NCBI GenBank assembly: GCA_018650285.1
Contig: JABIGF010000027.1
Location: 1-64,000, forward strand
DNA: 64,000 nucleotides
Direction: 5' to 3'
From: Methanobacteriota archaeon
GTDB taxonomy: Archaea > Thermoplasmatota > Poseidoniia > Poseidoniales > Thalassarchaeaceae
Shown: in pieces, positions 8,534 to 13,917 of the stretch
Position numbering within the stretch: the stretch's first letter is position 1
Layout of the letters: each line of letters starts with the position of its first letter
Program-made: the position numbers and the translations under genes
The notes under the pieces: model-generated
The model's database searches: none
Seen by the model: the letters and a program-made list of their open reading frames with translations, nothing else
Told to the model about the DNA's origin: nothing

Positions 8534-10435
8534 GTGAGATTGACATTTAAGGACATCAAAGAGAAGTTGCTAGACATGATGCCTAGCGGAGCCGATTATG
8601 AAATCGACTTGGAAGCGGCTAGTATTGCTATTATTACCAAAACACCGGAAGAATTCAATAATTCTCTCATTGGAGAGATGGCAAAAACCGTTAAGAGAAG
8701 AATAATTGTTAGGCCACATGAATCAATATTGATGGACATAAACGAAGCAAAAGAGATTATCAAAAAGGAAATCCCAGATGAAGCGTTAGTCTTGGATATT
8801 TGGTTTGACCCTGCAATTGGCGTTTGTACAATTGAATGTAAAGACCCAGCATTAGGAGTCGGTAAGAGAGGAGTGCATCTCAAAAAATTACGCGACCAAA
8901 TCGGTTGGCATGTCAAAATTATCCGAGCATCACGAATGGACAGTAGAACAATTAACGATGTTCGAATGTTTAGGGCTGAACATTCTGAAGAACGAAAGAA
9001 AGCATTGCGGAGATTCGGCAATAATGTATACCGCCCACAAAGGCCAGGTGAGAAATGGGTTAGATTGACCGGACTTGGAGCCTATGGGGAAATAGGTCGT
9101 GCTTGCCATTTGATTACAACAAATGAAAGCCGTGTAATAATTGATGTTGGAGCCAAACCTGGGCGTGAAGAGACATCGATGCCTTACTTTTCAGCCCCTG
9201 AAATGTTACCTCCAGACAAGATTGATGCTGTGGTAATTACCCACGCGCACTTGGACCATGTTGGGATGCTTCCAGTCCTGTACAAGTATGGATATCGTGG
9301 GCCGGTGTACTGTACCCCTCCTACACGTGATTTGATGGTAATGCTGCAATTAGATTTTATCAAGGTTGCACAATCTGAAGGTCGCCGCCCTCCATACACT
9401 CTCGAAGATGTGCAAGAAATGATGTTGCACGTTGTTGATGTTGATTGGAACCAAACAACAGATATTGCACCAGATATCAAGATGACTTTCTTTAATGCAG
9501 GACATATTCTTGGTTCCTCCTCGGTTCACATGCATATTGGCGATGGTTTACACAATGTTGTCATTAGTGGTGACATCAAATTTGAGAAATCATGGTTATT
9601 TGATGCTGCAACAGTGCGTTTTCCGCGAGTGGAAACGCTAGTAATTGAGTCAACATATGGTGGGCCAAAGTCTTTCCAACCATCAAGGGCTGAAGCGACG
9701 CAAGAATTGCAAGATATGATGAAACGTGTTTTGGCTCGTGGTGGCAAAGTTTTCTGCCCAGTCTTTGCAATTGGCAGAAGTCAAGAATTGATGTTAGCAA
9801 TTGACCAACTATTCAAATCAGGAGAATGCGAACCAGTTCCTGTATGGCTTGATGGAATGATAACCGAAGCAACAGCTATTCATTCCATGCATCCTGATTA
9901 TCTAAATCAAGAATTGCGCCAAGCAGTATTGAAAGATGATGAAACAAATCCATTTTCTTCAAAGTGGTTTAGAAAGGTGGAAAGTAGAGATCAACGTGAA
10001 ACAATTATCAATACCCCTACTCCTTGTATTGTTTTAGCTACTAGTGGAATGATGTCTGGGGGTCCAATCATTGAATATTTCAAGAATTGGGCCGGTGATA
10101 GCCTCAACACTTTGGCTTTTGTTGGATACCAAGCCGAAGGTACACTTGGCCGTCGGTTGAGGGACGGATTCAAAGATGTGCCAATTAGTGACGGTGGCCG
10201 CGGAACAGACATGGTTAGAGTTGAATGTGACATGGTAATTGTTGATGGGATGAGCGGTCATTCTGATCGCCGACAATTGATGGATTATGTCAAACAGATG
10301 AATCCTAGACCACGTTTCGTAGTAGTCCATCATGGAGATCCCAAGGTTTCAAATCAATTCAGACAGGCTTTACGAGAAGCATACCGTATGAGAACAGTAG
10401 CCCCATCAAATCTTGAGACAATTCGGTTAGCGTGA
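8534..10435 (+). CDS. fttA: aCPSF1/FttA KH-domain beta-CASP ribonuclease
   Basis: A 633-residue archaeal CPSF73-like protein that acts as an endonuclease and, as FttA, in factor-dependent transcription termination. Residues 1-145 form the two KH-type RNA-binding modules. The metallo-beta-lactamase core follows, with the zinc ligands HAHLDH at 237-242, then GHILGSSS and the SGD motif. The beta-CASP insert includes ESTYGG and GGKVFCPVFAIGRSQE. The late histidine motifs are the conserved SGH (MSGHSDR) and VVHHGD near the C-terminus. Initiation is at GTG. Length and domain order are standard for the family. Confidence 0.96.
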   Translation: MRLTFKDIKEKLLDMMPSGADYEIDLEAASIAIITKTPEEFNNSLIGEMAKTVKRRIIVRPHESILMDINEAKEIIKKEIPDEALVLDIWFDPAIGVCTIECKDPALGVGKRGVHLKKLRDQIGWHVKIIRASRMDSRTINDVRMFRAEHSEERKKALRRFGNNVYRPQRPGEKWVRLTGLGAYGEIGRACHLITTNESRVIIDVGAKPGREETSMPYFSAPEMLPPDKIDAVVITHAHLDHVGMLPVLYKYGYRGPVYCTPPTRDLMVMLQLDFIKVAQSEGRRPPYTLEDVQEMMLHVVDVDWNQTTDIAPDIKMTFFNAGHILGSSSVHMHIGDGLHNVVISGDIKFEKSWLFDAATVRFPRVETLVIESTYGGPKSFQPSRAEATQELQDMMKRVLARGGKVFCPVFAIGRSQELMLAIDQLFKSGECEPVPVWLDGMITEATAIHSMHPDYLNQELRQAVLKDDETNPFSSKWFRKVESRDQRETIINTPTPCIVLATSGMMSGGPIIEYFKNWAGDSLNTLAFVGYQAEGTLGRRLRDGFKDVPISDGGRGTDMVRVECDMVIVDGMSGHSDRRQLMDYVKQMNPRPRFVVVHHGDPKVSNQFRQALREAYRMRTVAPSNLETIRLA

Positions 10436-12468: not shown

Positions 12469-12918
12469 TTATCCTAGCCACCGCCATTCATCTGAAGAAT
12501 GGCGGAGTAGTAATCCTTGAGATTCTACCATATCAATCAATTCTTGACCATTAGGGCTTTCTATTTGCCGTTTATCTAAGGCGTTTTGGACAATCTGTAA
12601 GTTAATTAATCCGTTTTCATCAACGATGTTACTAATGATTTTCAAGAGGGCTCTTGGCGATTTGGTATCCTCCTCAAAACTTTCATAATTATCACGCCGC
12701 ATTCTTTTGTTTAATTCTGCACGTAATTCAGGTGGAGTATTGGCCAAAGAGACTTTTTCTCTTAGGTCTTCACTATCATTTGCTCGTTCAACAATAGGGT
12801 TTTCTCCACGGGTTCCACAACCAGGGCATTGGGACGATGGAACTTGAGTTAAACTACCAAAATGTCGTTCACATTCTTTGCAGCGAATCACGAGAAACAC
12901 TCGTTCTTCATCACTCAT
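12469..12918 (-). CDS. Zinc-ribbon protein, unknown function
   Basis: A 149-residue protein with an N-terminal rubredoxin-like zinc ribbon: C13-x2-C16 and C31-x2-C34 (RCKECERHF ... CPGCGTRG). A charged linker and a helical C-terminal domain of about 70 residues (KSPRALLKIISNIVDENGLI ... GQELIDMVESQGLL) follow. The C-terminal part could be a winged helix, but this is only a guess. It lies 9 nt downstream of the PvlArgDC-like gene on the same strand and is probably in one operon with it. I do not recognise a named family. Confidence 0.7.
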   Translation of the reverse strand: MSDEERVFLVIRCKECERHFGSLTQVPSSQCPGCGTRGENPIVERANDSEDLREKVSLANTPPELRAELNKRMRRDNYESFEEDTKSPRALLKIISNIVDENGLINLQIVQNALDKRQIESPNGQELIDMVESQGLLLRHSSDEWRWLG

Positions 12919-12927
12919 TGTGTTGCC

Positions 12928-13575
12928 TCAGAATTGGAAACTAAAATCTCCGCTATTGCTGCTTTTTGCTGGGCGGCTAGAGCCACTTCCTTGTGAAAAC
13001 CCACTTCCAGCGCTCTTGGTTAGCCCGCCTCTTACTCTTCCAACTTGGCTAGTTTGCATGTTTAGTGTATCTGGGAGAATTAGTGCAGCGATGGCACATC
13101 CTTCGTGGTCTTCTGCGGCAGTCACTTCGTCAACAGCAATTTCATGTGACACCACTTCTAAATCACGTGAAGCCAATTTCATTTTCAAGCTTCTTTTGAG
13201 TAATAGTTCGGTTTCTTCGTAGGATTGGTTACTTGAGATTGTTGCTACAATCGCACATTCATCTCCTTCAGGAGTCACACATTGTGCCCAAGCCACTCCT
13301 GCGGAAGCAACCTCTCCTTTGGATGCGTAGGCTTCAGCAATATGGCATTCTACTAGTGAGCCCATTGGCAGATCTTCTGGTGGGGTTGGTTCAAATCCCA
13401 TTGGAAGCATTGCACCTTGCATTCGGATGAGGCGAGAATCTCCTAAACCGAGTTCTACAAGACATTGGTCAAAAGCATCTTCCTTGGTATCACCCCAAGG
13501 TGCTACTGATGTCATCAACCATCCGGTACACGAACCCTCTGAACGCTTTCGTCCAGTGTCCATTTTGAAGTCCAT
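12928..13575 (-). CDS. Pyruvoyl-dependent arginine decarboxylase-like protein without the cleavage serine
   Basis: From the ATG at 13575 the protein has 215 residues. Its core recalls PvlArgDC: EGSCTGWL, a DAFDQCLVELGL helix, the RLIRMQGAMLPMG strand-turn, GSLVECHIAEAYA, GVAWAQ, and an HEGCAIAAL helix. In true PvlArgDC the SSI/F-PP turn carries the serine that self-cleaves to form the pyruvoyl group. Here the aligned residues are about Q53-G54, so self-processing looks impossible and the protein may be a structural or regulatory homologue. The C-terminal 40 residues are Gly/Ser-rich. A longer frame starting at 13632 would overlap the divergent gene, so the internal ATG is preferred. Confidence 0.5.
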   Translation of the reverse strand: MDFKMDTGRKRSEGSCTGWLMTSVAPWGDTKEDAFDQCLVELGLGDSRLIRMQGAMLPMGFEPTPPEDLPMGSLVECHIAEAYASKGEVASAGVAWAQCVTPEGDECAIVATISSNQSYEETELLLKRSLKMKLASRDLEVVSHEIAVDEVTAAEDHEGCAIAALILPDTLNMQTSQVGRVRGGLTKSAGSGFSQGSGSSRPAKSSNSGDFSFQF

Positions 13576-13626
13576 ATTGGCCGGATAGGGGTTGGGTTCA
13601 TCAAGTGGCCGGCGAATGGATTGATT

Positions 13627-13917
13627 ATGCAATGGAGGCGCCTCGCACCTGCGGTTTTGGTAATCCTCCTGTTTTTAATCGTCATAATAATGAAAACGGG
13701 TGATGCTGGAGGGATGTCTCAAGAGGCGTTTGCAGTCCTTCTTATCCTATTCATTGGAATATTCGTATTTGTCTTTATTTCTGCTCCTGATGAAGAAAAC
13801 ATTGAAGCCATTCAAACCTCAACAAAAACTGAAAATCTGCAACAATCTGGGACGAAACAACTTGAGTCGGTACTTCCTGACCCCTTGGATGAAGGTTTTG
13901 ATTCTCCACTTATGTGA
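13627..13917 (+). CDS. Small two-helix membrane protein
   Basis: A 96-residue protein not recognised by family. It has a short basic start (MQWRR), two transmembrane helices (APAVLVILLFLIVIIM and FAVLLILFIGIFVFVFI) separated by a short glycine loop, and a 40-residue polar cytosolic-looking tail. A TTG 6 nt upstream is an alternative start. It is divergent from the PvlArgDC-like gene and convergent with asnS. Confidence 0.55.
   Translation: MQWRRLAPAVLVILLFLIVIIMKTGDAGGMSQEAFAVLLILFIGIFVFVFISAPDEENIEAIQTSTKTENLQQSGTKQLESVLPDPLDEGFDSPLM

Follow-up and report, generated by a model that had tools for sequence, protein, structure and literature searches.

Genes at the locus

On the reverse strand of the window (the whole 64,000-nt stretch of DNA that was analysed) we saw an operon of two genes. 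The first encodes a relative of pyruvoyl-dependent arginine decarboxylase (PvlArgDC), to which we refer as pseudo-PvlArgDC, and the second a protein with a zinc ribbon and a winged helix (the zinc protein, product of the zinc gene); a gene for a small membrane protein lies upstream of the pair and runs the other way (Table 1). Pseudo-PvlArgDC is 215 aa long by its open reading frame and translation, with an ATG start at 13575; the same start, with MDF, was seen in its relatives from the same genus.

Table 1. Genes of the operon and its neighbour, and codons of pseudo-PvlArgDC at positions important in PvlArgDC
Feature	Position in window	Strand	Description
Pseudo-PvlArgDC gene	12928..13575	-	PvlArgDC fold at residues ~16-172 without the pyruvoyl-forming residues, then a low-confidence tail of ~40 aa with a short conserved end motif
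Zinc gene	12469..12918	-	Zinc ribbon and C-terminal winged helix (149 aa); comes second in the operon, with its start 9 nt downstream of the pseudo-PvlArgDC gene
Small membrane protein gene	13621..13917	+	Variable hydrophobic part, conserved C-terminal LPDPLxxGFDxPL(M); TTG start at 13621, ATG at 13627 also possible
Q53-G54-A55 codons	13411..13419	-	Stand where catalytic PvlArgDC has the self-cleavage pair S52-S53, with one residue more (joint alignment)
R48 codon	13432..13434	-	Position of N47; R in 57/58, ambiguous X in 1 (joint alignment)
T112 codon	13240..13242	-	Aligns with the E109 carboxylate; among 58 sequences T 27, K 18, S 13; catalytic-type homologues have E (40/40)
D36 codon	13468..13470	-	Equals D35 of M. 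jannaschii; kept in 57/58, X in 1

Upstream of the pair, on the opposite strand, the membrane gene was found in 118 of 119 loci by a model that had been iterated within these same loci, the remaining one (L040) being recovered by another model; it was divergent from the operon in all 118 loci where the first model matched. The last ~14 residues of its product are conserved, and the body is variable. Among the 193 Poseidoniales genomes the model matched 144 (E ≤0.01), some of these matches probably being spurious membrane stretches; next to the 40 catalytic-type PvlArgDC genes of other Thermoplasmatota no membrane gene was found. Many Poseidoniales loci lie near genes for proteasome beta and aCPSF1 (e.g. 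L060:3004-5618; genes identified by eye); aCPSF1 occupies 8534-10435 (+) of the window.

Fold and family of pseudo-PvlArgDC

The product of the first gene matched the Pfam family PvlArgDC (PF01862) with an E-value of 3.2e-9 and 37.3 bits against a cut-off of 22.7, which places it in the family. Its match to TIGR00286 (E-value 5e-10, 39.3 bits) fell below the equivalog cut-off of 106.95, the level at which a functional PvlArgDC is called. The relatives found by sequence in the PDB were 1n2m and 2qqd, entries of the M. jannaschii enzyme, with E-values of ~1e-7.

An AlphaFold2 monomer model built from 58 sequences had a mean pLDDT of 77. Ten-residue blocks between residues 21 and 170 ranged from 77 to 96, and both ends were disordered; the least confident of the blocks, 51-60 (block mean 77), is the one that contains the cleavage turn. 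The model matched chain 2qqd_H (M. jannaschii PvlArgDC) with Z 21.3 over 152 residues at 2.0 Å, and Foldseek placed it with the PvlArgDC entries of the PDB at an E-value of 8e-14. Below these entries came histidine decarboxylase (Z 6.7) and then an unrelated protein, whose Z of only 4.5 was the best outside the pyruvoyl decarboxylases. We regard the PvlArgDC fold of the modelled protein as settled.

The disordered tail has a conserved short motif at the C-terminal end (window 12931-12960, reverse strand), of the types DFSL, DFTL, DFSF and DFGF; in the window it reads FSFQF.

Loss of the pyruvoyl-forming residues

Functional PvlArgDC is a trimeric assembly, and its residue D35 presumably contacts the guanidinium group of the substrate. 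Self-cleavage of the enzyme is reported to occur at Ser53, aided by the carboxylate of Glu109 (PMC2720952); structures of mutants at S53, N47 and E109 exist in the PDB, according to the entry titles. We followed these positions in a joint alignment of 58 pseudo-PvlArgDCs, 40 PvlArgDC ORFs from genomes of other Thermoplasmatota and the M. jannaschii stretch.

All four residues, S52, S53, N47 and E109, were present in 40 of the 40 PvlArgDCs of other Thermoplasmatota, so that loss of cleavage residues was seen in none of them (0/40). The turn in the window reads R-L-I-R-M-Q-G-A-M-L-P, and the run from N47 to P56 has one residue more in the 58 pseudo-PvlArgDCs than in the 40 Thermoplasmatota PvlArgDCs. 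The serine pair aligns either to Q-G, with A as the inserted residue, or to Q and A, with G inserted; there is no serine under either alignment. For the pseudo group as a whole the consensus of the turn is R-x-x-x-x-[QEKHR]-G-A-x-x-P, with G in 57 of 58 sequences (one X) and A in 58 of 58: the S53 column holds A in every pseudo-PvlArgDC and S in 40/40 catalytic-type homologues, and the inserted column holds the 57 G and the single X. The first position of the x-G-A turn was Q, E, K, H or R, and Ser, Thr or Cys occurred in this turn in none of the 58 aligned pseudo-PvlArgDCs. The replacements of N47 and E109 and the retention of D35 are given in Table 1.

Two other positions changed as well: L31 became E in 58 of 58 pseudo-PvlArgDCs and N32 became D in 57 (one X). 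Polar residues fixed in the pseudo group, and not fixed in catalytic-type homologues, are E32, D33, R48, E76, H78 and D149; C77 is common to both groups. Judged by the loss of S52-S53, N47 and E109, it is near certain that pseudo-PvlArgDC cannot form a pyruvoyl group by the known route, which would make it a dead enzyme.

One locus has features of both groups: at L185:2381-3004 (+) we saw a PvlArgDC with the SS pair that nevertheless resembles the dead group in its C-terminal extension and in the loop that precedes the E109 strand; downstream of it, a DHS-like ORF takes the place of the zinc gene.

Distribution, selection and descent

The pseudo-PvlArgDC gene was present in 113 of the 193 Poseidoniales genomes, in 14 of the 21 genera and in 23 of the 34 near-complete genomes. 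The turn had the form x-G, with the serine lost, in 40/40, 80/80 (79 by pattern and L046 by eye) and 20/20 Poseidoniales loci; the sets of 40 and 80 overlap, and the 20 are further loci from divergent genera. The residue loss was uniform across both families of the order, in every locus examined. The 80 loci were the best 80 of 184 related stretches from a scan of named genomes; these best 80 carried the labels Poseidoniales or its families, Euryarchaeota, Thermoplasmata and euryarchaeote, with two bacteria. The two bacterial entries, L107 and L114, are recorded as Deltaproteobacteria and Rhodobiaceae; both contain the Poseidoniales locus, probably through contamination or mislabelling.

Of 42 pairs of pseudo-PvlArgDC genes, 9 had pS ≤0.60, and in these dN/dS lay between 0.029 and 0.062; it was 0.015-0.098 when all pairs with unsaturated dS were taken; among 19 sequences, 64 positions between residues 17 and 172 were invariant. 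By these measures the gene is under purifying selection, and it is maintained, not decaying.

In the tree the pseudo group formed a single clade (100/100), whose branch measures 4.5 changes per site. This tree was midpoint-rooted and included 16 of the 58 pseudo rows, with Thermoplasmatota only on the other side, a scope in which the catalytic source lineage of the pseudo gene is not resolvable. Because the branch is very long and the other side holds Thermoplasmatota only, descent from the enzyme of the operon is argued from synteny (see below) more than from the tree.

The original prediction, made from the letters of the sequence, had seen a PvlArgDC fold pattern with about QG at the turn where the cleavage serine should be, and had suggested a pseudoenzyme. 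The Pfam match and the structural model agree with it on the fold, the best structural matches being PvlArgDC entries and not an unrelated fold; the joint alignment bears out the missing serine and extends it by the inserted residue and the replacement of N47 and E109. The check across orthologues that had been proposed found no serine at the cleavage position in any of the three sets of loci, and the absence of the pyruvoyl-forming residues together with purifying selection speaks for the pseudoenzyme.

The zinc-ribbon/winged-helix operon partner

The zinc gene immediately followed the pseudo-PvlArgDC gene, with the same orientation, in 40/40 and 78/80 Poseidoniales loci, the two exceptions (L102 and L108) being at a contig edge. 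Its product had four invariant cysteines in 56 sequences. In the structural model, residues 85-149 form a winged helix with a best Z of 7.5, the winged helices of MCM, Rpa2 and MCM8 and many others being tied; on this model, the winged-helix class of these residues is likely, with no single best relative, and the protein is probably a nucleic-acid binder. DUF5817 (PF19134), a model of 57 positions, resembles the zinc-ribbon part and leaves the winged helix outside. It scored 11.3 bits (cut-off 31) for the protein in the window and gave weak matches to 4 of 19 Poseidoniales zinc proteins (best E-value 3.3e-4); two of three zinc partners from catalytic-type loci passed its Pfam cut-off. In the search for a named family for the partner, the Pfam and NCBIfam matches were weak or partial, and the structure search returned a generic winged helix.

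A profile made from Poseidoniales zinc proteins only had a match immediately after the catalytic-type PvlArgDC gene in 18 of the 40 loci of other Thermoplasmatota (E ≤0.001) and no match elsewhere within those loci. Retrained with 19 hits, and hence partly circular, the profile matched at 29 of the 40 catalytic-type loci, in one ORF each and always adjacent to the enzyme gene; at the other 11 the zinc gene was absent by this extended profile. With zinc homologues standing beside catalytic-type PvlArgDCs, the pair therefore predates Poseidoniales. By synteny, the dead gene would be best seen as the counterpart of the catalytic Thermoplasmatota PvlArgDC.

The zinc gene itself was found in 177 of the 193 Poseidoniales genomes, including 34 of the 34 near-complete ones. 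As it is kept in genomes that have no pseudo-PvlArgDC (177/193 versus 113/193), the zinc protein has an independent role. All 17 loci examined in genomes that lack the dead enzyme have the zinc gene in place near aCPSF1, and in 16 of them the membrane gene is divergent from it (L241 gave no match); these 17 were picked for a visible zinc gene, mostly also for a visible membrane gene, and show that the arrangement exists, not its frequency. Since the outgroup has both the enzyme and the zinc gene, loss is the simplest explanation for small genomes that lack the dead enzyme.

We also considered that the C-terminal peptide of the membrane protein docks on pseudo-PvlArgDC; this is disfavoured, as 16 of the 17 loci without pseudo-PvlArgDC retain the membrane gene and the peptide.

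At the first pair of cysteines in its ribbon, the zinc protein had CxC in 17/17 loci without the dead enzyme (L225-L241); where the dead enzyme is present, it had CxxC in 56/56 aligned sequences and in 18/20 loci (L243-L262). A single lineage may explain this pattern.

Search for a second PvlArgDC and supply of agmatine

A protein search of the source genome (G000, 88.6% complete) gave a single match and thus no second PvlArgDC. None of the 193 Poseidoniales genomes had a PvlArgDC above the TIGR00286 cut-off, and the sub-threshold matches, in 11 genomes, were each at the dead gene. The TIGR00286 genome search is of limited sensitivity: it recovered 11 dead genes where 113 are known, and it gave a signal in three control genomes, above the cut-off in two of them; a Pfam search of the genome missed the known pseudo-PvlArgDC gene itself and is weak evidence alone. 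The alignment search does recover catalytic-type PvlArgDCs from other Thermoplasmatota families; among the Poseidoniales genomes listed it yielded no second copy of this type, gene pieces aside. Because the family-model searches are weak alone, we base the absence of a second PvlArgDC on the protein and alignment searches.

The SpeD (AdoMetDC) family was present in 179 of the 193 Poseidoniales genomes and in 21 of the 21 genera. The source genome has one copy, whose ORF adjoins a SpeY-like ORF (identified by eye). At 31 Poseidoniales SpeD loci (~3.3 kb pieces) a simple motif scan showed a SpeY-like ORF in 25 and a SpeB-like ORF in 14; the ES motif was seen, again by a simple motif scan, in 26 of the 31. 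TiaS, which requires agmatine for tRNA modification, occurred in 167 of the 193 genomes, the source genome included. A SpeD-family member of Ca. Poseidoniales and one of marine group II/III are reported to decarboxylate arginine, without restoring spermidine synthesis; this SpeDA is described as a reassigned AdoMetDC whose gene is found with speB and speY (PMC10407285). Given the spread of the SpeD family in the order, the reported arginine decarboxylase (ADC) activity and the speY neighbour, arginine decarboxylation can be covered by SpeDA.

A clean swap of PvlArgDC for SpeDA was rejected, as the two families coexist: a SpeD-family gene was also found in 19 of the 40 genomes with catalytic-type PvlArgDC, the count not distinguishing AdoMetDC from ADC type.

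In several Poseidoniaceae genomes (e.g. G109:C10:7150-7425 and G186:C64:15781-16080) the SpeD match lies in an open frame of 430-500 aa, compared with the usual ~140; this points to a fusion, in which the adjacent speY may be the other part.

With regard to its genomic setting, the dead gene had been predicted to share one operon with a zinc-ribbon protein, and a second PvlArgDC gene in the genome had been named as something that would support the pseudoenzyme idea. The operon stands, but it is not a new association, catalytic PvlArgDCs of other Thermoplasmatota having the same neighbour; the expected second PvlArgDC did not turn up, and a different pyruvoyl enzyme family, SpeD/SpeDA, is there instead.

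Discussion

We think it somewhat more probable than its opposite, at roughly 0.55, that the gene represents, in Poseidoniales, the PvlArgDC of Thermoplasmatota, relieved of its duty by SpeDA and kept, no longer catalytic, as a partner to the zinc protein. A non-catalytic partner role is probable because the cofactor residues are lost, yet the protein is strongly conserved beside its old zinc neighbour. PvlArgDC and its zinc operon partner would have been inherited together; SpeDA would have taken over agmatine synthesis and freed the old PvlArgDC from catalysis, and the dead protein would have been retained for its work with the zinc-ribbon/winged-helix protein. The PvlArgDC body may act as a binding subunit, with a ligand-sensing or a scaffolding function, for a nucleic-acid-binding partner. 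Binding would use D35 and newly fixed residues at or beside the old active-site positions (E32, D33, R48); as far as the alignment tells, these four residues suit a putative binding site. In lineages with small genomes the subunit would be dispensable and would have been lost, and the zinc gene and the divergent membrane gene would have stayed.

That pseudo-PvlArgDC is the non-catalytic partner of the zinc gene product is what we infer, and gene adjacency is the one line of evidence that points to this link. The dead enzyme is not needed by the zinc protein everywhere, as the zinc gene is in places retained alone. One could speculate, quite tentatively, that the Thermoplasmatota operon comprises the enzyme and its own zinc-ribbon/winged-helix reader of arginine/agmatine status, that, once SpeDA had taken over the reaction in Poseidoniales, the body of the enzyme remained solely as the sensor for this reader, an enzyme turned receptor, and that streamlined lineages dropped the sensor and kept the reader. 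If this were true, the phylum would still contain all three steps of the series: the enzyme and its partner, the dead enzyme and its partner, and the partner by itself.

Pseudo-PvlArgDC might instead still be an enzyme, with new chemistry or a metal site built in the old pocket from E32, D33, R48, E76, H78 and D149, along with the shared C77. The many newly fixed polar residues and the low dN/dS would agree with such a change; we consider it unlikely, however, as no pathway genes are adjacent, the neighbours that are constant in both families being the zinc-ribbon/winged-helix gene and the small membrane protein gene, and the spatial clustering of the fixed residues is putative.

Far less probable is that the dead protein is an activating subunit which switches on an active decarboxylase, in the manner of the trypanosome AdoMetDC prozyme, where the precedent is a dead AdoMetDC paralogue (PMC5201418). 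No active PvlArgDC was found with which it could pair (0/193 over the cut-off), so the active paralogue of such a system is missing; the SpeD family occurs in 179/193 genomes versus 113/193 for the dead protein, and SpeDA thus works without the dead protein in many of them. SpeDA and the PvlArgDC relative, moreover, we take to have different folds.

A pyruvoyl or another electrophile could in principle be made by some other route in a protein that is still an arginine decarboxylase. D35 and the overall fold are retained as this would require, but the turn has no Ser, Thr or Cys in the 58 aligned sequences, nor was one seen at x-G elsewhere, N47 and E109 are lost and the length of the turn is altered; we find the idea highly implausible. 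A decaying pseudogene, as might be proposed from the 80 of 193 Poseidoniales genomes in which the gene is unmatched and from the decay of pyruvoyl arginine decarboxylase genes in Chlamydia (PMC2720952), is contradicted by the constraint (open frames in the loci examined, dN/dS of 0.03-0.06, invariant sites over two families) and can be set aside with hardly any reservation.

A non-catalytic subunit derived from PvlArgDC, the reading that we prefer, can be set beside known proteins. With PvlArgDC proper (PF01862/TIGR00286; M. jannaschii structures 1mt1 and 1n2m) pseudo-PvlArgDC has in common the fold over 152 residues, D35, the LPMG motif and, in Thermoplasmatota, often the downstream zinc gene; it differs in having no S52-S53, N47 or E109, a turn longer by one residue, a longer loop before the E109 strand and a tail of ~40 aa, and in scoring below the TIGR00286 cut-off. 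SpeDA of Ca. Poseidoniales, as described (PMC10407285), performs the reaction of PvlArgDC in the same order of archaea and belongs to a different protein family.

Dead relatives of pyruvoyl decarboxylases are already known, namely the trypanosome prozyme, a Leishmania AdoMetDC-like protein and Chlamydia aaxB. AaxB of Chlamydia trachomatis (PMC2720952) is likewise a pyruvoyl arginine decarboxylase that lost its function; in that report the inactivated forms are strain-level pseudogenes, whereas the loss here is order-wide and the protein is constrained. The trypanosomatid AdoMetDC prozyme (PMC5201418) and the uncleaved AdoMetDC-like protein of Leishmania (PMC3686867) are also kept without self-cleavage or catalysis; these cases, as reported, differ in that an active paralogue is present and in belonging to another family. 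In a search over titles and the beginnings of abstracts, with most subscription journals outside its coverage, we found no publication on an order-wide dead PvlArgDC with an ancestral operon partner, or on the zinc partner.

A match to the PvlArgDC family invites the annotation 'arginine decarboxylase', which would probably be wrong for Poseidoniales, where SpeDA is the likelier source of agmatine. Lineages with a catalytic, a dead and an absent enzyme form a natural series around a conserved, unstudied zinc-ribbon/winged-helix gene, and this series may make the function of the partner testable, in the lineages with a catalytic enzyme as well.
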